A DNA stretch of 64,000 nucleotides from Acidobacteriota bacterium (GTDB lineage Bacteria; Acidobacteriota; Terriglobia; UBA7540): contig CADDZJ010000010.1 in NCBI GenBank assembly GCA_902812415.1, forward strand, positions 1 to 64,000, given 5' to 3'. Positions 25,654-35,769 of this stretch are shown here, one piece after another. The position numbers and the translations under genes were made by a program. Numbering within the stretch: position 1 is the first letter of the stretch; each line of letters begins with the position of its first letter. The notes under the pieces were generated by a model. It saw only the letters and a program-made list of their open reading frames with translations. It did no database searches and was not told where the DNA came from.

Positions 25654-26499
25654 ATGAAAACCTCACGAATCGTATTCCTTATCTTCGTCGGTCTCTGCTC
25701 TTTTGTAACCTCGGCAGCTTTTGGACAGTCGATAGCTCCTGCTGGATTTGCTTTTCAAGCAGTTGCTCCCCAAATCATCGAACAACGGTTAAAGAGCGCA
25801 CCCCTTGATAACGCACAGCGCGCAATGGCCCTTCGAGCGATGTTTGAAGCAGCGGGTTGTGGAAGCGCGAATTTAACAGAGCAATTAGTCCACAAGGGCG
25901 AAGCGCCCAACATTATTTGCAGGCTGCCCGGTGAGACTTCGGCATTGATCATCGTGGGGGGACATTTGGATCATGTACGAAGGGGCGATGGAATTGTGGA
26001 TGATTGGAGCGGCGCTTCCCTGTTGCCAAGCCTCTACCAAAGTCTTCGCCCTCAATCTCGCCGGCACACCTTTCTATTTATCGGTTTCACGGAAGAAGAA
26101 AAAGGGCGGCGGGGCTCGAAGTTTTATGTCGAAACACTCTCTTCCAAGGCCCTCCATCACATCCGCGCCATGGTGAATCTGGAATGCTTGGGGATGAATC
26201 CGCCGGAAGTCTGGGCCGATCACGCCGCCCCCGCCTTGCTGGCCGATTTGGATCGTGTGGCGAAATCGATGGGCACTTATTTTCCGAGAGTCAATCTCGA
26301 GCGCGTGGGGTATGATGATGCCATCTCTTTCCGGCGCCGCAACGCGCCCACGATCACCCTTCATTCTTTGTCGCAGGATACTCTTCGGGTGCTCCATAGC
26401 CGGAGGGACAATCTCTCAGCCGAGCGTCTGAATTACTACGACGAAAGTTTCCGATTGATCGCCGCGTACCTGGCCTATCTGGATACGGCTTTACCATGA
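25654..26499 (+). CDS. Secreted M28 family peptidase
   Basis: Zn aminopeptidase-like. The signal peptide ends near VTSAAFGQ. Probable metal ligands: IVGGHLDHV (His), VDDWSGAS (Asp), FTEEEKGRRGS (Glu pair), MVNLECLGM (Glu), and TLHSLS (His). 281 aa, compact, with no PA insert. It begins 27 nt after the NUDIX gene. The canonical DNASG segment is VDDWSG here, so substrate preference may differ. Confidence 0.85.
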   Translation: MKTSRIVFLIFVGLCSFVTSAAFGQSIAPAGFAFQAVAPQIIEQRLKSAPLDNAQRAMALRAMFEAAGCGSANLTEQLVHKGEAPNIICRLPGETSALIIVGGHLDHVRRGDGIVDDWSGASLLPSLYQSLRPQSRRHTFLFIGFTEEEKGRRGSKFYVETLSSKALHHIRAMVNLECLGMNPPEVWADHAAPALLADLDRVAKSMGTYFPRVNLERVGYDDAISFRRRNAPTITLHSLSQDTLRVLHSRRDNLSAERLNYYDESFRLIAAYLAYLDTALP

Positions 26500-26550: not shown

Positions 26551-26564
26551 GTTGTCTATACAAC
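26551..26564. promoter_or_regulatory. Candidate GntR (HutC-type) operator
   Basis: GTTGTCTATACAAC has 5-bp inverted arms (GTTGT/ACAAC) around CTAT. Its core GTCTATAC resembles operators of the NagR/DasR group of the HutC subfamily. It lies 50 nt upstream of the GntR start codon, consistent with autoregulation. TGTCTATACAAC recurs upstream of the TonB-dependent receptor at 63683-63694. Confidence 0.55.
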
Positions 26565-26613: not shown

Positions 26614-27384
26614 ATGGTTTCCATTTCCGTTAATCGCCGCAGCAGGGTTCCCCTTTACTATCAAATCCAGCAAAGGCTGCTGAAGCAGATCACCGCCGGG
26701 AGGCTCAAAACCGGCGATCTGCTGCCTTCAGAGCAGGAGATTTCGGCCCGCCTGGGCATCAGCCGCATGACGGCCCGGCAGGCGCTCAAATCGCTTTGCC
26801 ATCTGGGGGTCACCTACAGCCGGCGCGGCAAAGGGACTTTCGTTTCCGGCATCAAGCTGGAGAAGAATTTTCGCCAGGTGCAATCGTTTACGGAGGAAAT
26901 GAAAGCGCGCGGCTTAAAACCCCAGGCGCGAGTGCTCTCGTTCCAAACGATTCCGGCGCGTGGAGAAGTCGCCGAGGCGCTGAAGCTGCCGCTGGGTGAG
27001 CCGGTCGTGAGCCTCAGGCGGCTGCGGCTGGCGGATTCATGGCCTATGGGCATTGAGTGCAGCCACCTGCCGGCGCGGATTTGCCCAGGCATCCTGAAAG
27101 CTTTCAACCCGCGCGCCTCCCTCTATCAAACGCTCTGGAAACGATACGGAATTCTCATGGCGGTGGCCGAAGAAGTGGTCGAAGTGGGGCGAGTCAGCGC
27201 GGAAGAGGCGCGGCTGCTGCGCACGCGCCCTGGCAGTCCCGTGTTTCAATTTACCCGAACCTCGTATTTGCAGGACGGGCGACCCGTGGAGTACGTGAAG
27301 TCTATTTATCGCGGCGACCGCTATAAAATCGTCACGCGGCTCACGCGCCTGAATTGCGACTTCGGGACGGTCAGGAGAGCCTGA
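26614..27384 (+). CDS. GntR-family regulator, HutC subfamily
   Basis: The N-terminal winged helix (YYQIQQRLLKQITAGRLKTG, LLPSEQEISARLGISRMTAR, FVSGIKLEKNFRQV) is followed by a UTRA ligand domain from about residue 90 (SFTEEMKARGLKPQARVLSF, FQFTRTSYLQDGRPVEYVKS). The UTRA class often senses sugar phosphates such as GlcNAc-6-P or GlcN-6-P. It stands at the head of a cluster with SIS, glycosidase, ROK, MFS and PIG-L genes, which supports control of amino-sugar use; this part is inference. Confidence 0.9.
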   Translation: MVSISVNRRSRVPLYYQIQQRLLKQITAGRLKTGDLLPSEQEISARLGISRMTARQALKSLCHLGVTYSRRGKGTFVSGIKLEKNFRQVQSFTEEMKARGLKPQARVLSFQTIPARGEVAEALKLPLGEPVVSLRRLRLADSWPMGIECSHLPARICPGILKAFNPRASLYQTLWKRYGILMAVAEEVVEVGRVSAEEARLLRTRPGSPVFQFTRTSYLQDGRPVEYVKSIYRGDRYKIVTRLTRLNCDFGTVRRA

Positions 27385-27417
27385 TTTTCTAACAGCGCTG
27401 AAAACCGTTCCCGAACT

Positions 27418-27505
27418 GTGTCATTCCGAACGCAGCGAGGAATCCCGCCTTGAGAGCACCATTCTTATGAGATTCCTCGTCGACGGCGGCACTTCGGAAT
27501 AACAC
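27418..27505. repeat. Inverted pair of TGTCATTCCGAACGCAGCGA repeats
   Basis: TGTCATTCCGAACGCAGCGA with GGAATC on the left and its approximate reverse complement (GATTCCTCGTCGAC, then CACTTCGGAATAACA) on the right, enclosing about 30 bp. It fills most of the gap between the GntR and SIS genes and would form a hairpin in the transcript. Confidence 0.65.
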
Positions 27506-27543
27506 ATGGGTTGAGTTTTTCAGACACCTATGAGGAGGATGGA

Positions 27544-28299
27544 ATGTCGGCTGAACATTATCTCGCCCGGATCGGAGAAATCATCGAGACCATCCGGCAG
27601 ACGCAAAAAGAAAAGATCGAACGGGCGGGCGAGGTCTTTGCCCGATCTATCCGCGATGGAGGCCGAGTTTACCTGTTCGGGAGCGGTCATTCCGTCATCC
27701 CAGTGCTCGATATCTTTCCCCGCTATGGCAGCTTCGTCGGATTTCTTCCCATCTATGATCCCCGCCTGATGTGGTTCAACGTGGTCGGCCCGGGAGGCGC
27801 TCGCGAACTGCTCTGGCTGGAGCGCCAGGAAGGTTACGTCAGGAATATTCTATTAAGCTACGGTCTTGAGCCACGAGACTCTATCTTGATTTTTTCCCAC
27901 GGAGGGCTGAATGCCGCTCCGGTTGAGATGGCGCTGGAGGCCCGGAAGCAGGGCCTGACCGTGGTTTCGGTTTCTTCGCTTCAAAACCATCGCCAGGCCC
28001 GCGCTACACATTCAAGCGGCAAAAAGCTCGCAGACGCCTCTGATATTGCCATTGATAATTGCGTGCCGCCTGAGGACGCTTTGGTTGGCATTGAGGGCGT
28101 GCCGGAAAAATTTGCCGCTGGCTCGACCGTGGCCGCCGTTTCCATCGCCATGGCGCTAGTGGCAGAAGTAGGCTCGCGGCTGGTGCGAGAAGGTGCGAAG
28201 CCCCCAACATTCGTATCACCCAACGTGGGCTTGCCGCCGGATCATAACGAGCAGGTCTTTAGGGCCTACGAGCAATTCGCAACGAACCGCCGGGGATAG
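27544..28299 (+). CDS. SIS-domain sugar-phosphate protein (UPF0309-like)
   Basis: Two-part SIS fold: GRVYLFGSGHSVIPVLDIFP near residue 40 and DSILIFSHGGLNAAPVEMAL near residue 116, followed by VVSVSSLQNHRQARATHSSG. Such proteins bind sugar phosphates and act as isomerases, etherases or regulators. 251 aa from the ATG at 27544, preceded by a strong GAGGAGG. It lies between the GntR regulator and the GH42-like enzyme. The exact reaction is unknown; MurNAc-6-P etherase is unlikely on sequence. Confidence 0.85.
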   Translation: MSAEHYLARIGEIIETIRQTQKEKIERAGEVFARSIRDGGRVYLFGSGHSVIPVLDIFPRYGSFVGFLPIYDPRLMWFNVVGPGGARELLWLERQEGYVRNILLSYGLEPRDSILIFSHGGLNAAPVEMALEARKQGLTVVSVSSLQNHRQARATHSSGKKLADASDIAIDNCVPPEDALVGIEGVPEKFAAGSTVAAVSIAMALVAEVGSRLVREGAKPPTFVSPNVGLPPDHNEQVFRAYEQFATNRRG

Positions 28300-28316
28300 C
28301 AGGCAAACCTTTGCTT

Positions 28317-28427
28317 TTCACCACAGAGAACACAGAGGTTTTTCTTCGCGCCCGCTCCTGACTGGCCGTCATTCATGAAGAGCATGAAAGCGCGTTCCTC
28401 TGTGTCCTCCGTGCCCTCTGCGGTAAG
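28317..28427. repeat. CACCACAGAGAACACAGAGG inverted pair
   Basis: TTCACCACAGAGAACACAGA at the left and CCTCTGTGTCCTCCGTGCCC at the right. Same family as 21731-22050 and 32984-33048. Confidence 0.65.
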
Positions 28428-28537
28428 ACGTGTCCTCACCTTTGCATTGAGCGCTGCCAATCGCAGGAGAAGCAAGAAGTTTCGGACATCAGAAGTACAA
28501 CACCTGAATCAGGAACATCAATACTGAGGATTCCGCC

Positions 28538-30814
28538 ATGAATCACTCTCGGATCTCTTGCCCCGTAGCGTGTTTTCTGCTGAGCGCGACGCTTATCGGT
28601 ATCGCCAAGCCCGCATTCACCGCAGACCCATCTCTTGACTTCTTCCCTGTTGCTGTCTGGTATAGCGGCGGCAAGGCGCGGGCGCCGATGCTTGAGCCGG
28701 TGGATGCGACAAGCGCTGAGCGTTGGGGCAGGGACCTGGACCAGATCAAAGCCCTGGGGTTCAACACCGTCAAGTGTTGGGTGGACTGGGCCACCGCCGA
28801 GCCCAAACTGGGCGTCTTCGATTTCAAAAACCTCAACCTTTTGTTGAAGCTTGCCCAGGAGCGCGACCTCCGCGTGATCGTGCAAATCTACACCGATTCG
28901 GCCCCGGACTGGGTCGGGTTGCTCTTCCCGGACGCGCAATTTGTGGATCGCAGCGGCGCAGTGATCCGCTCACAGGCTGCGCCCGGATATTGCATGGATG
29001 ATCCCGCTCTGCGGGCGGAGATCGTGAAGTTCCTTCAGGCGCTCTCGCGCGACGCCAACCAGTTCCCCGCCCTTTACGGTTGGGACGTCTGGAGCGAGCC
29101 CCATGTGGTGAACTGGGCCGACCTTTCGTATCTGAAAGATCCCGAGTTCTGCTACTGCCGCTACAGCCAGCAACGGTTTCGCGCCTGGCTTCAAGGCAAA
29201 TACAAAACGCTTGCCGCTTTGAACGCCGCCTGGTACCGGCGCTTCGCACGCTGGGATCAGGTTGAGCCGCCGCGCTTTTCGACGATCCTCTCCTACACCG
29301 ATTATCTCGACTGGAGAGCGTTTATTGATGATAAACTTGCCGGTGACTTGAGAACGCGTGTGGAGGCCATCCGCAGCGCCGATCATGCGCATCCGATCAC
29401 CAGTCACGCCGCTGCGCCCGGCCTCTTTACTTCGCCCACAGATGGCTATGGCGAGCCGGATGACTGGAAAATGTCAGAGGCGGCGGATTTCTTTGGGACT
29501 TCGCTTTATCCCAAGCACTCGGAATCCACGCACCCGTGGCCTTATTGGATGCTCGCGGCAGGCTTGGATTTTACCCGCTCGGCGGGCCACAGCTTTGGCA
29601 AAGGGTTCTGGATCGGCGAGCTTCAGGCCGGGCAAGGCGTCACCGGCATGCGCATTGCCGCTCCGGTGACGGCGCATGACGAAGAATACTGGATGTGGCA
29701 AGTGGTGGCGCACGGCGCGCGCGAGATTGCGATCTACGCCTATTACCCCATGAGTTCCGGCTACGAATCCGGCGGCTACGGCCTCGTTCATCTTGACGGC
29801 GCGCTTACGGACCGCGCGCGGGCGGCGGGATCGGTGGCGCAGGCGATTGAGCGGAACGCGCGGGAAATCAACCCGGCTCGCCCTGCGCCGGCGCAGGTGG
29901 CGATATTCTACGATCGGCTCTCTTATCTGGTGGGCGGCACTCAGCCTTCGCTTTCAAAGCTCGGCAACGCCGAGCGTGACTCGCTCATGGGTGTCTACCG
30001 CGCTTTCTTTGAAGACCAGATTCCGGTAGATTTCGTCAGCCACGTTGACATGGATCGCAGCGGGCTGAGCCGATATAAGATTGTTTTTCTGCCTTTTTCG
30101 GTTATGCTCTCAAAAGACGCGGCGGAAGGAATCAAGCGATACGTGGCTGCGGGCGGGATGGCGGTGGCCGAAGCGCGCCTGGCCTGGAATAACGCCCAGG
30201 GCGATGCCAGCCCCGTCATTCCGGGCTTTGGATTGGATCAGGTTTTTGGCGCGCGCGAGCTGATGATTCAGCCGGTTGCTGAGCCGCGATTGCAGATGGA
30301 ATCTTCGCTTCCGGGTTTCGAGGGCGCTGAGCCTGTGGCTGGCGCGGCTTTTGAGGAAGATCTGCAACCGCTCTCAGACGCGCGCGTCCTTGCGCGATTC
30401 GCCGATCATCAGCCCGCTATCGTCGAAAATCATTACGGTAAAGGCAAAGCGATTCTGATTGGGTCTTTCCCTGCTCTTGCTTACCAGCGCCAGCACAAGG
30501 CATCAACCCGGAAACTCTTCCTGGCCCTGGCTCGCGCCGCCGGGGTGACACCCGAGGTCAGGGTTTCAGGGCTGGGAACTTCAGAGATCGAAGTGCGGCG
30601 CCTTGAAAGTAACGAAGCGCAAATTGTTTTCGTCTTTAATCATGCAGATCATCCGGCTGACGCCGCCATTTCTATCCGTTTGCCATGGCCTGTGGAGAGC
30701 GCGCGCGACTGGATGGCTGACCGCGCCGCACCTTTTGCAGCAAAAGATGGAGAAGCGATTCTGCACGAGCCTCTCCCAGCAAACGGCTTCCGGGTGGTGG
30801 AATTGGCGAGGTAG
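28538..30814 (+). CDS. Secreted GH42-like beta-galactosidase family protein
   Basis: Glycoside hydrolase, 758 aa, with a signal peptide (FLLSATLIGIAKPAFTA). The N-terminal TIM barrel (about residues 35-440) has FNTVKCWVDWATAEP, and YGWDVWSEPHVVNW as the likely acid/base Glu segment. GKGFWIGELQAGQGV would hold the nucleophile Glu. A GATase-like trimerisation domain (about residues 460-660: QVAIFYDRLSYLVGG, YKIVFLPFSVMLSKDAAEG, GGMAVAEARLAW) and a small beta domain follow. Typical GH42 has NE at the acid/base; here it is SE. The natural substrate is unproven; the cluster suggests an exported oligosaccharide-cleaving enzyme. Confidence 0.86.
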   Translation: MNHSRISCPVACFLLSATLIGIAKPAFTADPSLDFFPVAVWYSGGKARAPMLEPVDATSAERWGRDLDQIKALGFNTVKCWVDWATAEPKLGVFDFKNLNLLLKLAQERDLRVIVQIYTDSAPDWVGLLFPDAQFVDRSGAVIRSQAAPGYCMDDPALRAEIVKFLQALSRDANQFPALYGWDVWSEPHVVNWADLSYLKDPEFCYCRYSQQRFRAWLQGKYKTLAALNAAWYRRFARWDQVEPPRFSTILSYTDYLDWRAFIDDKLAGDLRTRVEAIRSADHAHPITSHAAAPGLFTSPTDGYGEPDDWKMSEAADFFGTSLYPKHSESTHPWPYWMLAAGLDFTRSAGHSFGKGFWIGELQAGQGVTGMRIAAPVTAHDEEYWMWQVVAHGAREIAIYAYYPMSSGYESGGYGLVHLDGALTDRARAAGSVAQAIERNAREINPARPAPAQVAIFYDRLSYLVGGTQPSLSKLGNAERDSLMGVYRAFFEDQIPVDFVSHVDMDRSGLSRYKIVFLPFSVMLSKDAAEGIKRYVAAGGMAVAEARLAWNNAQGDASPVIPGFGLDQVFGARELMIQPVAEPRLQMESSLPGFEGAEPVAGAAFEEDLQPLSDARVLARFADHQPAIVENHYGKGKAILIGSFPALAYQRQHKASTRKLFLALARAAGVTPEVRVSGLGTSEIEVRRLESNEAQIVFVFNHADHPADAAISIRLPWPVESARDWMADRAAPFAAKDGEAILHEPLPANGFRVVELAR

Positions 30815-31084
30815 CATCGGAAGCCAATGTTCCACGTCATGAGGAGTAGTCGAATTGCAGAAGACCGCAAATGATAGTCGGATGTCGCATCAATCCCTGG
30901 GCTGAATCCACGGGCGGGACGCCCGTGCCGCGGTTGTGGCATTGTTATCCTGGCCATGACCACCCATTGTCCAGAAATGTTAGTGGCATATGACCGGCAA
31001 CTGTAGCGGCGCTGTCTCCAGTGCCGAAAAAATCGTCGGGAAGTCGCCAGCGCGACATCGAAGATTAGCGTCAAGGAGGGCGCG
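30815..31084. other. Gene-free spacer with repeat fragments
   Basis: Contains a GGGCGGGACGCCCGTGCC repeat (30907-30940) and a partial REP-like element beginning TGTAGCGGCGC at 31002. No supportable gene. AAGGAGG before 31085 is the ribosome site of the next gene. Confidence 0.6.
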
Positions 31085-32050
31085 ATGAAAATTCTAAAAA
31101 TAGGGGTTGTGGTTTTCTTCTCTGTCGTCTCCGCTCTGGCCAGCCAGAGCGGAAATTATCATCTTCTACGTGAGGTTCCCATCGCGCCCAAAGGCGGCTG
31201 GGATTACATCGCTGTGGATCCCTCAGCCCGACGCGTCTATATCTCGCATGGCATGGAAGTGGACGTTGTCGATGCGGATTCTTATTCCCTGGTCGGCAAG
31301 ATCGCTCCCACCCCCGGAGTTCACGGCATTGCGCTGGCCGAAGACCTGGGGCGCGGATTCATCAGCGATGGCCGGGCTTCCACCATCACGGTTTTTGACC
31401 TAAAAACTCTCAAGACCCTCGCCGTGGTTCACTCGACAGGCGAAGACCCGGATGCCATCGTGTACGATCCCGTCACGCAGCGGGTGTTCGCCTTTAACGG
31501 GCACAGCGATACGGCGACCGTGCTGGACGCCAAAACCACGAAAGTTCTGGGCACCATCCAACTCGGAGGCGACCCTGAATTTGCGGTAGCGGATGGGAAA
31601 GGATTCATCTTCAATAATCTCGAAGATAAAAGTGCTTTGCTGAAGATCAACGCTCGCAGCCTGCAGACGGTCGCCCGCTGGCCGCTTGCGCCGTGCGAAA
31701 GTCCTTCCGGCCTTGCCATGGACCTTGAAAACCGGCGCCTCTTTTCCGGCTGCCGAAACCAGGTGATGGTGGTCGTGAACGCCGATACGGGCCACGTCAT
31801 CACTTCTCTGCCCATCGGCGCCCATGTGGATTCGACAAAGTTCGATCCAGCCACTCACTTGGTTTTTGACTCAAACGGCGACGGCACCTTGACCGTTATT
31901 CATGAAGACTCACCCAACCGGTATCACATTGTCCAGACTGTCAAAACCGCTCCGGGAGCGCGAACCAGCGCTGTTGATCCCAAAACCCATCGGGTATTTC
32001 TCACCACCGGCATTGATGGAAAATTCACCGTGCTGGTGGTTGGCAGATGA
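31085..32050 (+). CDS. Secreted YncE-like beta-propeller
   Basis: About 321 aa with a short signal peptide (IGVVVFFSVVSALASQ). It is built from seven-bladed-type repeats of about 40 residues (GWDYIAVDPSARRVYISHGM, GIALAEDLGRGFISDGRAST, DAIVYDPVTQRVFAFNGHSD, GLAMDLENRRLFSGCRNQVM). Such propellers bind ligands or partners and rarely have catalysis. The stop overlaps the ROK start (ATGA), so it is translationally coupled to a sugar kinase, which hints at a role in the same sugar locus. Confidence 0.83.
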   Translation: MKILKIGVVVFFSVVSALASQSGNYHLLREVPIAPKGGWDYIAVDPSARRVYISHGMEVDVVDADSYSLVGKIAPTPGVHGIALAEDLGRGFISDGRASTITVFDLKTLKTLAVVHSTGEDPDAIVYDPVTQRVFAFNGHSDTATVLDAKTTKVLGTIQLGGDPEFAVADGKGFIFNNLEDKSALLKINARSLQTVARWPLAPCESPSGLAMDLENRRLFSGCRNQVMVVVNADTGHVITSLPIGAHVDSTKFDPATHLVFDSNGDGTLTVIHEDSPNRYHIVQTVKTAPGARTSAVDPKTHRVFLTTGIDGKFTVLVVGR

Positions 32051-32949
32051 CCGCCAAAACCGGATTTGCGCTAGTCGCTGACCTGGGCGGAACGAAGATC
32101 GCCGCCGCGCGCGTAAGTTCGAGCGGCGAAATCACTCATTCCCTTCAAGCGCCCACTCCGGCTGAAGGCGGCGAATCCGTTATTCAAGTATTACTTCAAG
32201 TTTTGGATGACTTGCCGCGAACGGGCGTCCAGGCCATTGGAGTGGACGTGCCAGGGCTGGCATACCCCCACGGGAAAGTTTGGGCGCCCAACCTTCCGGG
32301 TTGGAAAGAAATGCCGCTCGGCGCAAAATTAAAGAAATACTTTAAGCTTCCGGTCCTCGTCGAAAGCGACCGCAACGCCTTTGTGACCGGCGAGGTCTGG
32401 AAAGGGGCTGCCAAAGGTTGCCAGGATGTGGTTTATCTGGCGCTCGGCACAGGCATTGGAGCCGGGATCATTTCGGGCGGGCGGTTGCTGCGCGGATATC
32501 GTGAACTGGCAGGATGCGCGGGGTGGCTCGCAGTCCAGGATTCATTTCTGCCTGAATATGAAGCGATCGGCTGTCTCGAAGCTCACGCCGCAGGACCGGC
32601 CATCGCTCGCCGGGCACGCAAAATCCTCAAGCAATCCATGAATGTATCTGAAGTTGCGCGTGTCGCCCGCGAAGGCAATCTGGAAGCACAAAAAATCCTG
32701 CGCGATGCAGGCCATTATCTGGGTCTGGCGCTGGCCAATCTGGTGAGTCTACTGAACCCGGAGATGATCGTCATTGGCGGCGGGGTGGCAGAAGCCGGGG
32801 AACTGCTGCTTGCGCCCGCGCGTGAAACCATGAAACGCTGGGCGCAGCCGCTGGCCGCTCGCCAGGTTAAGATTGTCCGCAGCAAGTTGGGCAATCAAGC
32901 GCCGTTACTTGGAATGGCGAGGCTGGCCTTTACAAAGTACATAGGCTAG
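32047..32949 (+). CDS. ROK-family sugar kinase, atypical zinc site
   Basis: About 300 aa. The ATP site is LVADLGGTKIAAARV. The catalytic region shows ESDRNAFVTGEVWKGAAKGC and VYLALGTGIGAGIISGGRLL. The normal ROK zinc motif (GHxxx...CxCGxxGCxE) is degenerate: the first His and two Cys are gone, leaving YEAIGCLEAHAAGPAI. It is likely a glucokinase/N-acyl-hexosamine kinase relative whose zinc dependence is doubtful. It follows the propeller (4-nt overlap) and precedes the MFS gene. Two 17-bp palindromic motifs overlap its codons. Confidence 0.85.
   Translation: MTAKTGFALVADLGGTKIAAARVSSSGEITHSLQAPTPAEGGESVIQVLLQVLDDLPRTGVQAIGVDVPGLAYPHGKVWAPNLPGWKEMPLGAKLKKYFKLPVLVESDRNAFVTGEVWKGAAKGCQDVVYLALGTGIGAGIISGGRLLRGYRELAGCAGWLAVQDSFLPEYEAIGCLEAHAAGPAIARRARKILKQSMNVSEVARVAREGNLEAQKILRDAGHYLGLALANLVSLLNPEMIVIGGGVAEAGELLLAPARETMKRWAQPLAARQVKIVRSKLGNQAPLLGMARLAFTKYIG
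32183..32199. promoter_or_regulatory. 17-bp palindromic motif, inside the ROK gene
   Basis: TTCAAGTATTACTTCAA: one mismatch to the consensus. The codons across it (CAA GTA TTA CTT CAA) include TTA and GTA, which contrast with the G/C-ending codons around them. Confidence 0.6.
32329..32345. promoter_or_regulatory. 17-bp palindromic motif, inside the ROK gene, second copy
   Basis: TTAAAGAAATACTTTAA: nearly perfect symmetry, three mismatches to the consensus; about 146 bp from the first copy. Confidence 0.45.
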
Positions 32950-32983
32950 CAGTTCTTCATCGCGGGCAAGATCAGAAAAGAAT

Positions 32984-33048
32984 CCACCACGGAGAGCGCA
33001 GAGGACACGGAGAAAAGACCTCTGTGCCCTCTATATCCTCCGTGGCGG
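32984..33048. repeat. CCACCACGGAGAGCGCAGAG palindrome
   Basis: CCACCACGGAGAGCGCAGAG faces CCTCTGTGCCCTCTATATCC and TCCGTGGCGG in a 65-bp hairpin. It is the tightest copy of the CACAGAGG family, located between ROK and MFS. Confidence 0.65.
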
Positions 33049-33116
33049 GAAGTAATAGAACGCTCACCGACACCGAGGCGGCGTAATCAAGGAATATCCG
33101 CCATCCTTTTCCCTAT

Positions 33117-34253
33117 ATGCATCGCACCGTTTTGCTCATCACGGTGAACGCCTGCATGTTCGTTTTTGGCGTGGTCTTGCTGTTAATGGGCTCTCTGCTG
33201 CCTGTGATGCATGTTAGCCAGCGGCAGGCAGGCGCGCTGGGTTCTTTTCCTCTGGCCGGAATCCTGATCGCCACGCTCGCTATCGGGCCTTTTCTGGACA
33301 AGGCTGGTGCGAAGCGCGCTCTAGGCGCAGCGCTCGGTCTAATCACCTTCGCGCTCGCGGTGATGCCATCGCTTGGCAGCTATCGATCCCTAGCGATAAC
33401 CGCCCTGACGTACGGGCTGGGAGGAGGAGTTCTGAACACTGCAACCAACGCGCTGGTGGCTGAATTGAACGCTTCCGGACGAGCGGCAGCGCTCAATCTG
33501 CTCGGCTTTTTCTTCAGCCTGGGCGCCGTCACGGCCCCTCTTCTGATGTCATCCCTCGGCGCGGCGCGCTCACCGGGAATGGTTCTTCGCGTTCTTGCCC
33601 TCCTGAGCGGCATCCTTCTGATCCTGGTGCTCGCGCTGAATTTTCCAGCCCCTCAACGGGCCGATGCTCCTCTGGGCAGTTTGCTTCGAGTGTGGCGCGA
33701 ACCTACGGTCTGGCTATTTGCGGCGTTTCTCTTCTTCGAGTCAGGCAACGAGAATTGCATGTTTGTCTGGACCGGAAAGGTTGCCGCGGATTTTTTGAAG
33801 ACCACCGCGCAACGCGCTGAACTTGCGCTTCTCGGATTGAGCATCGCCTTAGGCGCAGGACGGCTGCTGGCTCTTTTGTGGCTCAAACTTCTGGGCAGTC
33901 GAGTGACGCTCTGGCTTTCCGCTGCCGCAGTGATTATGGGCGCAGTCATCATTTTAGGTCACCCTACCTATGCCGGAATGCTCGGGGGATTTGCGATCAT
34001 CGGGCTCGGCCTTTCTGCAATTTATCCCACGGCGCTGGGGCTTGCCGGCGACCGCTTTCCAAAAGAGACGGGAACGGTGTTTGGAGCTATCATGACCGTC
34101 GGACTGATTGGCGGAATGGCTGGCCCTGCGCTGGGCGGGCTGGCCGCAGGTTCCGGCCCCCTGAAAGTGCTCGCTATTCCTATCGTGGCGGCTGTGGCCG
34201 TTGCAGCGCTTACGGCGGCGATCACTCGCGGCCTGGCGCCGGACCGTCCGTAG
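33117..34253 (+). CDS. MFS permease (sugar transporter-like)
   Basis: About 378 aa with roughly 12 membrane helices. It starts VLLITVNACMFVFGVVLLLM; the first loop contains GPFLDKAGAKRALG, the MFS motif A type (D-x-G-x-K/R). A second half with GDRFPKETGTVFGAIMTVGL is typical of the FucP-like group. It sits after ROK and is likely a permease for the sugar that the kinase phosphorylates (inferred). The ATG at 33117 has no clear ribosome site. Confidence 0.82.
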   Translation: MHRTVLLITVNACMFVFGVVLLLMGSLLPVMHVSQRQAGALGSFPLAGILIATLAIGPFLDKAGAKRALGAALGLITFALAVMPSLGSYRSLAITALTYGLGGGVLNTATNALVAELNASGRAAALNLLGFFFSLGAVTAPLLMSSLGAARSPGMVLRVLALLSGILLILVLALNFPAPQRADAPLGSLLRVWREPTVWLFAAFLFFESGNENCMFVWTGKVAADFLKTTAQRAELALLGLSIALGAGRLLALLWLKLLGSRVTLWLSAAAVIMGAVIILGHPTYAGMLGGFAIIGLGLSAIYPTALGLAGDRFPKETGTVFGAIMTVGLIGGMAGPALGGLAAGSGPLKVLAIPIVAAVAVAALTAAITRGLAPDRP

Positions 34254-34256
34254 AAA

Positions 34257-34292
34257 GTCGGCGCGCCGACAAAAGTTAAAGTTTTACTTGAA
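34257..34292. repeat. Composite: GC palindrome plus 17-bp palindrome
   Basis: GTCGGCGCGCCGAC (34257-34270, perfect) is followed five bases later by TTAAAGTTTTACTTGAA (34276-34292; one mismatch). It lies right after the MFS stop codon and before the PIG-L gene. Confidence 0.75.
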
Positions 34293-34340
34293 AAATTGTT
34301 CCAGGCGATTTTTCCGTATTTTGCGGTCGGGGAGACTAAA

Positions 34341-35156
34341 ATGGATCCTCAAAACCGGCGAAGTTTCTTGAAAGACCTCGGATTGGGAACAGCGGCTTTT
34401 TCAATAGCTGGCGAGCAGGAGAAATCCATGCCCGGAAGGCCGCCGGTGGGAGACGCAGAAACCGCGGCATCCTCCACTCTGATGGCGATTGCCGCGCATC
34501 CGGGCGACGCTTTCTTTGCAATGGGCGCGCCGGTGGCCCATCGAATTCACCACGGGGGTCACGGCGTCTTCGTCAGCCTGTCGCTCGGAGAAAAAGGCTC
34601 CGTCACTATTCCGCCTAGTGAATACGGCGCTCTTCAACGCGAGGCGACTGTCCGCGCAGCCCAGATGCTGGGCGCCCAGGCCGAATTCCTCGCTTATCCC
34701 GACGGGCAGATCCCCATAAACGATGAAGCCAGCCTCGCCGTCTGCGACATGATTCGGGAATACCAGCCCGCAATTGTCGTGACCCACTGGCGCGGGAGCT
34801 GGCACAAAGACCATCGTGCCTGCTTTGAGATTGTGGATGGCGCGATCTTCTACGCCGCGCTCCCTGCCCTTGCTCGCAAGCAGCCAGCCCACAGCGTGAA
34901 GAAGCTGTTCTTTGCCGAAAATTGGGAGGATTCAGAAGATTTTCGACCCGACACTTACCTCGACATCAGCGCGGTCTTTGAGCGCTGGACTGAAGCCTGC
35001 GCCGTCTTTCCCATGTGGCGCGGAGAGAATGGCTTCCGTTACGATGATTATTACCGCAGCCTCGCGCGAGCCAACGGCTGCTTGAGCAATTTTGAATATG
35101 CCGTGGCTTTGATGTCCCCAGCGGAACAGCTTACCCGGCGCGTTCACTCGCTCTGA
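34341..35156 (+). CDS. PIG-L family deacetylase, exported
   Basis: LmbE-like N-deacetylase fold. The N-terminus RRSFLKDLGLGTAAF suggests a Tat-type signal; it starts at the ATG at 34341 with GGGGAGA upstream. The metal motif is AHPGDAFFAMG, where the family normally has AHPDD; the second part, THWRGSWHKDH, is close to the usual HxxDHxxxH. Loss of the second Asp may weaken or change metal binding. Family members deacetylate GlcNAc-type substrates, which fits the neighbouring sugar genes. 271 aa. Confidence 0.8.
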   Translation: MDPQNRRSFLKDLGLGTAAFSIAGEQEKSMPGRPPVGDAETAASSTLMAIAAHPGDAFFAMGAPVAHRIHHGGHGVFVSLSLGEKGSVTIPPSEYGALQREATVRAAQMLGAQAEFLAYPDGQIPINDEASLAVCDMIREYQPAIVVTHWRGSWHKDHRACFEIVDGAIFYAALPALARKQPAHSVKKLFFAENWEDSEDFRPDTYLDISAVFERWTEACAVFPMWRGENGFRYDDYYRSLARANGCLSNFEYAVALMSPAEQLTRRVHSL

Positions 35157-35187
35157 AAGGTTGCGGAGAACTCGGAGGGCAAATGTC

Positions 35188-35769
35188 ATGAACCTGATCC
35201 ATCGCTGGATATGCCGCTCAGCCCGCTGGCGGAGAAAGCTTGAAGAGCAGGTGCTGCCCTGGGTTTTAAGCGATGTCGAACTCGGACCGGACGTGCTTGA
35301 AGTTGGTCCTGGGCCGGGGTTGACCACCGACCTGCTGCGGCCTCGCGTCGAACGCTTGACCGCGATTGAAATTGACCGGCGGCTGGCCGAATCGCTTGCG
35401 GCGCGTTTGCGCGGCAGTCCCATCAAGGTGATTCGCGGCGACGCCACCGCCCTGCCCTTCGGAAGCGCCCGGTTTTCCGGAGCGGTATCGTTCACCATGC
35501 TGCATCACGTGCCTTCGCCCGCGCTGCAGGACCAGCTGCTTCGGGAAGTGCGGCGAGTGCTGAAACCTGGCGGAGTCTTTGCCGGCGTCGATAGCCTCCA
35601 GCGGCTGAGCATGCGGCTGTTTCACGTCCACGATACGCTCGTTCCCGTTGACCCTCGAACCTTCGGCGCGAGACTCGAAGCCGCAGGGTTCGAGGAGGTT
35701 TTGGTGGAAACTAACGCGACGGTTTTCAGATTTCGCGCGCGATGCCCGAAAAACCGTTCCAGTTCCTGA
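35188..35769 (+). CDS. SAM-dependent methyltransferase (class I)
   Basis: About 193 aa. Motif I is VLEVGPGPGLTTDLL; motif II is LTAIEIDRRLAESLA; the post-motif acidic region IRGDATALPFG and RVLKPGGVFAGVDSL follow. The gene uses the ATG at 35188 with CGGAGGG upstream and follows PIG-L by 31 nt. The small size and Methyltransf_11-like fold do not allow a substrate call. Confidence 0.82.
   Translation: MNLIHRWICRSARWRRKLEEQVLPWVLSDVELGPDVLEVGPGPGLTTDLLRPRVERLTAIEIDRRLAESLAARLRGSPIKVIRGDATALPFGSARFSGAVSFTMLHHVPSPALQDQLLREVRRVLKPGGVFAGVDSLQRLSMRLFHVHDTLVPVDPRTFGARLEAAGFEEVLVETNATVFRFRARCPKNRSSS

Follow-up and report, generated by a model that had tools for sequence, protein, structure and literature searches.

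Which sugar does a bacterium use with a gene set that places a GH42-like glycosidase next to a SIS protein, a ROK kinase, a major facilitator superfamily (MFS) permease and a PIG-L-like protein? The question is raised by a 64-kb piece of contig C10 (in the following, the window) from an Acidobacteriota genome of 4.84 Mb in 261 contigs, the closest relatives of which are acidobacterial bins from the Terriglobia and other groups. A preliminary description, made from the window alone, had placed seven genes on one strand and suggested that they serve the use of an acetylated amino-sugar oligosaccharide. The genes, their place and their common strand are borne out by strong Pfam matches for GntR with UTRA, SIS_2, GH42 with GH42M, a YVTN-type propeller, ROK, MFS_1 and PIG-L, all on the + strand. 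We favour, with moderate confidence, the view that most of this set forms a conserved module by which an amino sugar is scavenged from a beta-glycoside of the chitin or peptidoglycan type. The best reading of the locus is thus an amino-sugar utilisation locus of new composition, and the safest claim is that the substrate is a glycoside of a 2-acetamido or 2-amino sugar. The earlier statement that the exact set matches no known pathway stands, as literature searches for the gene set or for the SIS family gave no description.

The linkage of the genes is beyond chance, with the neighbourhood kept in distant relatives and co-occurrence across 396 genomes. Conserved synteny, which the preliminary description had proposed as a check, was found. 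Among 101 genomes searched (the own genome and 100 relatives), 27 have a SIS match at 1e-10, and in 14 relatives the identity is 72-85%. SIS and GH42 are adjacent in 12 of these 14, with ROK and MFS nearby in seven and PIG-L in six; several of the contigs end within the locus. A scan with one genome per species yielded 154 SIS relatives, and the neighbours in the best 80 of these loci are ROK (69 loci), MFS (58), GH42 (53), PIG-L (26) and GntR (24), followed by GH18 and NagA (18 each) and by GH116 and YdjC (14 each). By their labels, these 80 loci belong to Acidobacteria, with Aminicenantes and Bryobacterales among them, and to bins assigned to Bipolaricaulota, Chloroflexi, Thermomicrobiaceae, Bacillota and Hadesarchaea, where it has to be kept in mind that bins can be contaminated. 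In a phylum sample of 396 Acidobacteriota genomes, with SIS and GH42 both scored at 1e-60, SIS was found in 15 genomes and GH42 in 26, or in 24 when two matches at only 30-32% identity are set aside. All 15 SIS genomes also have GH42, compared to 24 of 396 overall (hypergeometric P 2.4e-21, with genomes treated as independent and kinship ignored). In three of the 15 (G127, G247, G301), SIS and GH42 lie on separate contigs or at a distance of 360 kb. The GH42 neighbourhoods without SIS show no consistent partner.

Five parts recur: the SIS protein, the GH42-like hydrolase, the ROK kinase, the MFS permease and the PIG-L-like protein. A GntR/UTRA regulator is sometimes added. The propeller, which had been counted as a member of the set, is a local passenger outside the conserved module, without a BLASTP match in the loci of 20 relatives (1e-5) or in the 80 SIS loci (1e-10). 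The coupling that had been proposed for it is real at the sequence level, as one ATGA holds both the stop codon of the propeller gene and the start codon of the ROK gene. The methyltransferase at the end of the span was rejected as a member together with the propeller, neither being found in the locus sets searched. The finding is wider than the earlier one, and the propeller and the methyltransferase are to be dropped from it, while the deacetylase label has to be treated with care. An M28 peptidase gene (window positions 25654-26499) directly precedes the module and also lies beside it in a relative of the same genus (L057), the only one of the 80 SIS loci with an M28 match at 1e-10; it was not retained as a member either. 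A role in defence was also dismissed, as PADLOC gave no match for three module proteins.

The GH42-like enzyme has the TIM barrel and the GH42M domain of the family (PF02449, PF08532, Foldseek). Its predicted model has a predicted local distance difference test (pLDDT) score of 87.7, and the top Foldseek matches are GH42 beta-galactosidases with about 20% identity. According to PMC6566704, an Asn-Glu pair at the acid/base position is found in all GH35/GH42 beta-galactosidases, the exo-glucosaminidase GlmA has Asp-Glu, and in the GH2 exo-glucosaminidase CsxA a Ser precedes the acid/base residue. The module protein lacks the Asn-Glu pair of the beta-galactosidases and has Ser186-Glu187 instead. 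In the alignment of the module enzymes (53 loci, with the short matches L104 and L113 left out), Ser-Glu is present in 49 of 49 rows, three of the 52 rows being without this region, and the nucleophile Glu361 is present in 52 of 52. In contrast, three of three GH42-like proteins that the phylum has outside the module carry Asn-Glu (L157 could not be resolved, and L160 and L164 do not cover the site). Among the solved GH42 chains, the five displayed have it too, as read by eye.

The SIS protein is probably a sugar-6-phosphate enzyme. Its predicted model is fair (pLDDT 77), and among solved chains it is closest to 3cvj and NagS (9eol), with MurQ next by fold. Residues H50, S51, R61, E94, S119, D179 and N228 are kept in 81 of 81 SIS sequences, and alignment to 9eol shows the NagS catalytic residues H53, R64, E94 and D179 to be matched in all 81. 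The four NagS residues reported to be inactive as Ala mutants in PMC12680351 are all among the invariant SIS positions. The MurQ equivalog TIGR00274 was not matched, and in NCBIfam the window SIS matches only NF002805 at 1e-3. A role of SIS as a NagB replacement was considered and rejected: weak PF01182 matches in Aminicenantes proved to be NagB above cut-off in all four genomes tested, of six searched, and the one strong Terriglobia PF01182 match tested is a 6-phosphogluconolactonase. The own genome also carries a distant SIS paralogue (40%) on contig C5 (L056, 8530-12758), in a SIS-centred sugar locus with SDR, FGGY kinase and GntR genes.

The PIG-L-like protein has the PIG-L/LmbE fold and the metal ligands of the HXD1D2 motif and the additional His, with H53 kept in 27 of 28 sequences (the exception is one His to Gln change) and D56 and H158 in all 28. 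It is related to the diacetylchitobiose deacetylases 8bgn and 3we7 (E 3e-6 to 1.5e-5), and its second-best solved relative is the 4-oxalmesaconate hydratase 5cgz. A Tat-like N-terminus is found in the window group, but L114, L117, L122 and L135 show no visible signal.

In the ROK kinase, the presumed active-site Asp lies within an SDRN, SDRH or GDRN motif in 12 of 12 aligned rows, and CxCGxxGCxE, which we take to be the usual ROK zinc-site motif, is missing in the same 12. The regulator gene is preceded by a perfect palindrome, TTGTCTATACAA, which begins 62 bases before its ATG and has no other exact match in the window; with up to one mismatch, two sites are found and 0.59 are expected. The palindrome is of the GTNTANAC type, presumably the HutC-type core. 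Identical sites or sites with one or two mismatches lie 5' of the GntR relatives in L040/L063, L039, L070 and L091, and TTGTCTAGACAA, TTGTCTATACAT and TCGTCTAGACAA occur upstream of close GntR relatives. Most of the more distant GntR genes near the module have no such palindrome site. With 131.7 bits, the regulator is below the HutC equivalog cut-off of 220, so the earlier label "HutC regulator" holds only at the level of the subfamily.

The features of the locus are collected in the table. The listed TTG start of the SIS gene at 27511 appears too early, and the ATG at 27544 with its purine-rich leader is the likely start. For PIG-L, the ATG at 34341 was taken, the open reading frame list having a TTG at 34296. 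Export was judged by eye, from a Sec-like N-terminus on GH42 and a Tat-like RRxFLK on PIG-L. Also by eye, CACAGAG-type and similar repeat-like sequence is seen in the intergenic stretches 27420-27500, 28318-28440 and 32980-33060.

Table. Features of the locus, in window coordinates
Feature	Position	Strand	Basis or remark
Candidate operator TTGTCTATACAA (GTNTANAC type), 5' of the regulator gene	26552..26563	+	palindrome match
GntR-family regulator with UTRA domain	26614..27384	+	PF07702 143.8 bits, PF00392 63.2 bits
SIS_2 protein, distinct subfamily of the PRK02947/UPF0309 family	27544..28299	+	PF13580; NF002805 261 bits
GH42-like glycosidase (GH42 + GH42M), putatively exported	28538..30814	+	PF02449 162.4 bits, PF08532 73.6 bits
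YVTN-type beta-propeller, overlaps the ROK gene	31085..32050	+	Pfam
ROK sugar kinase	32047..32949	+	PF00480 187.9 bits
MFS permease (MFS_1)	33117..34253	+	PF07690 95.5 bits
PIG-L/LmbE-fold protein, Tat-like N-terminus	34341..35156	+	PF02585 78.7 bits
Methyltransferase, final 600 bases of the span first described	35161-35769		not named in the title of the preliminary description

The genes that accompany the module in other lineages, namely GH18, NagA, a YdjC-type deacetylase, GH116 and NamZ, point to sugars of the N-acetylglucosamine (GlcNAc) or N-acetylmuramic acid (MurNAc) type. Many loci of the Aminicenantes type have the order GH18, GH42, ROK, SIS, MFS, YdjC, NagA, GH116, and NagA is above the TIGR00221 cut-off of 225.65 bits in L083 (333.8) and L129 (358). 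PIG-L (26 loci) and NagA (18 loci) are found together in just two of the 80 loci, L131 and L135. Some Terriglobia loci encode a beta-lactamase-NamZ fusion (Pfam shown for L062), and some Chloroflexi/Thermomicrobiaceae loci combine GntR, SIS, ROK, an ABC importer, PIG-L and a NamZ-like gene. NamZ-type genes near the module were identified by Pfam in L062 and by sequence similarity only in L061, L072, L114, L116, L117, L123 and L131; the beta-lactamase label in the tally of the 80 loci lumps beta-lactamase-fold and NamZ genes. In the relative G008, GH42 is followed by a different PIG-L, one with the classical HPDD motif; in G004, a gene resembling polysaccharide deacetylases comes after MFS. Such unrelated deacetylase-type genes, a classical HPDD PIG-L and a polysaccharide-deacetylase-like gene, adjoin the module in L039 (3871-5265, - strand) and L040 (10010-11545, + strand), where the base-less PIG-L of the module was not found. 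In Aminicenantes loci, GH116 is followed by a fusion of a sulfatase-like domain with TPR repeats (17586-20000 in L083, and in its relatives).

From the gene content, linkage, co-occurrence, fold classes and residue conservation that are observed, we infer the reactions, substrates and regulation as follows. The exported GH42-like enzyme would take a 2-amino or 2-acetamido sugar off the non-reducing end of an oligosaccharide. The PIG-L-like protein, working either earlier or later than this step, may have the N-acyl group or a related bond as its target. The free sugar would be imported by the MFS permease and converted to the 6-phosphate by the ROK kinase. SIS would then act on the amino-sugar 6-phosphate; its fold and catalytic residues are most like those of C3-eliminating enzymes, such as MurQ (ether cleavage) and NagS (dehydration). 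The GntR/UTRA protein may control the set via the GTNTANAC palindrome. The use of an amino-sugar oligosaccharide, as first suggested, is in keeping with the conserved neighbours and with the partners GH18, NagA, YdjC and NamZ, which fit an N-acetyl amino sugar, but the propeller is no longer part of the argument and the case for deacetylation outside the cytoplasm is weakened. In soils and sediments, amino sugars make up a main source of nitrogen-rich food, and Acidobacteriota rank among the commonest soil bacteria. The three enzyme clades with a changed active site, a GH42 outside the beta-galactosidases, a base-less PIG-L and a SIS next to NagS, suggest new activities that can be tested.

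Several observations weigh against this assignment. NagA, YdjC, GH18 and GH116 are not seen beside the module in the window, and the own genome has no NagA match at 1e-10, so that a route via GlcNAc-6-phosphate would need another deacetylase. The NagS substrate contacts S91 and S121 correspond to L and G in 81 of 81 SIS sequences, and PMC12680351 reports negligible NagS activity, or none, for three homologues that share 26-36% identity with NagS. In PIG-L, the first Asp of the HXDD motif, which is the general base of the deacetylases according to PMC4101496, is replaced by Gly, Ala or Phe in all 28 sequences (the window motif is HPGD); the three paralogues in the own genome for which the motif was read have HPDD. 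A PIG-L without the general base makes extracellular deacetylation insecure, and the lack of a visible signal in some lineages weakens it further. With respect to the co-occurrence, nine of the 15 SIS genomes come from one family, and the P value is therefore inflated. Finally, nine of the 24 GH42 genomes have no SIS match (two of them, G261 and G322, have contigs that stop immediately behind GH42), and GH42 may thus function in other settings as well.

Among the alternatives, a chitin or chitosan route as in Thermococcus is possible but doubtful. A PIG-L or YdjC deacetylase would make oligosaccharides that end in glucosamine (GlcN), the GH42-like enzyme would be an exo-beta-glucosaminidase, and the kinase and a SIS deaminase would follow. 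This would be consistent with GH18 genes next to the module, which are seen in 18 of 80 loci and have the DGxDxDxE motif in all 18, with YdjC in 14, with the relationship of PIG-L to the diacetylchitobiose deacetylases, and with the Ser-Glu pair, which resembles CsxA according to PMC6566704. However, the PIG-L-like protein is the one without the general base in all 28 sequences, and the best solved matches of the GH42-like enzyme are GH42 beta-galactosidases and not GlmA. Moreover, ordinary NagB (TIGR00502 above cut-off) is present in the four Aminicenantes genomes tested, of six, so that SIS is not needed there as a GlcN-6-phosphate deaminase.

It is rather unlikely that the module serves peptidoglycan recovery, with SIS as a second, non-orthologous MurNAc-6-phosphate etherase for imported MurNAc or MurNAc fragments freed by NamZ. 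NamZ is near the module in several lineages. It is encoded in 15 of 15 SIS genomes compared to 299 of 381 others (p 0.048), and in 12 of 12 module-bearing genomes of the Aminicenantes type that were searched, with MurQ missing in six of six searched; the predicted SIS model also resembles MurQ, after 3cvj and NagS. In contrast, within the window's own group 13 of the 15 genomes with the module have MurQ as well. Nor is MurQ significantly depleted among SIS genomes (3 of 15 versus 152 of 381; Fisher p 0.18), and SIS as the sole MurQ was not upheld on these grounds. Beyond the window, on contig C70 (L201, 7841-13196), the own genome keeps a separate cluster of MurQ, a sodium symporter and a beta-lactamase/NamZ fusion, which is a set of the classical kind for the recovery of MurNAc. 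An ordinary beta-galactoside locus with loosely associated SIS, ROK and PIG-L, to which the fold and the sequence family (PF02449) of the GH42 enzyme would point, is improbable in view of the Asn to Ser exchange in all aligned module members, the amino-sugar genes in the neighbourhood and the strict co-occurrence with SIS.

Returning to amino-sugar scavenging, a bolder and tentative version of it is that SIS founds a catabolic, non-toxic branch of C3-eliminating amino-sugar-6-phosphate lyases, being either a dehydratase similar to NagS or a second etherase similar to MurQ. Its supply would come from a new GH42 subfamily with specificity for 2-amino or 2-acetamido sugars, and the base-less PIG-L might catalyse a non-classical reaction, for example a hydration of the kind carried out by 4-oxalmesaconate hydratase.

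The archaeal chitin pathway, with Dac, GlmA and the SIS-type GlmD, shares with the module a PIG-L-fold protein and a GH42/GH35-like exo-enzyme with an altered residue before the acid/base Glu. The module differs in having Ser-Glu rather than Asp-Glu, an exo-enzyme closest to GH42, a base-less PIG-L, and another kinase, transporter and SIS family. The MurNAc operon of B. subtilis, with MurQ, AmiE and NamZ, also has a SIS_2 enzyme, and NamZ is near the module in some lineages. However, the module SIS does not belong to TIGR00274, GH42, ROK, MFS and PIG-L are extra, and MurQ coexists in the own genome. The 4-oxalmesaconate hydratase (5cgz), a PIG-L-fold enzyme of aromatic breakdown, likewise lacks the first Asp, its aligned motif being HSAD, but the similarity is weak (E 4e-10). 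With the GH42 beta-galactosidases (4oif, 3tts, 9ta3), the module enzyme shares the fold, the domains and both catalytic Glu residues, but it has about 20% identity in the fold match and Ser-Glu for Asn-Glu. NagS (SCO4393, 9eol), the GlcNAc-6-phosphate dehydratase of Streptomyces, is of the same SIS_2 subfamily and fold and has the equivalents of the H/R/E/D residues and of N228, whereas the module SIS has L/G for S91/S121 and about 31% identity, below the level of about 59% or more expected for NagS. According to PMC12680351, NagS sits by dmdR1 in Streptomycetaceae. The neighbours of the module SIS are GH42 and ROK.

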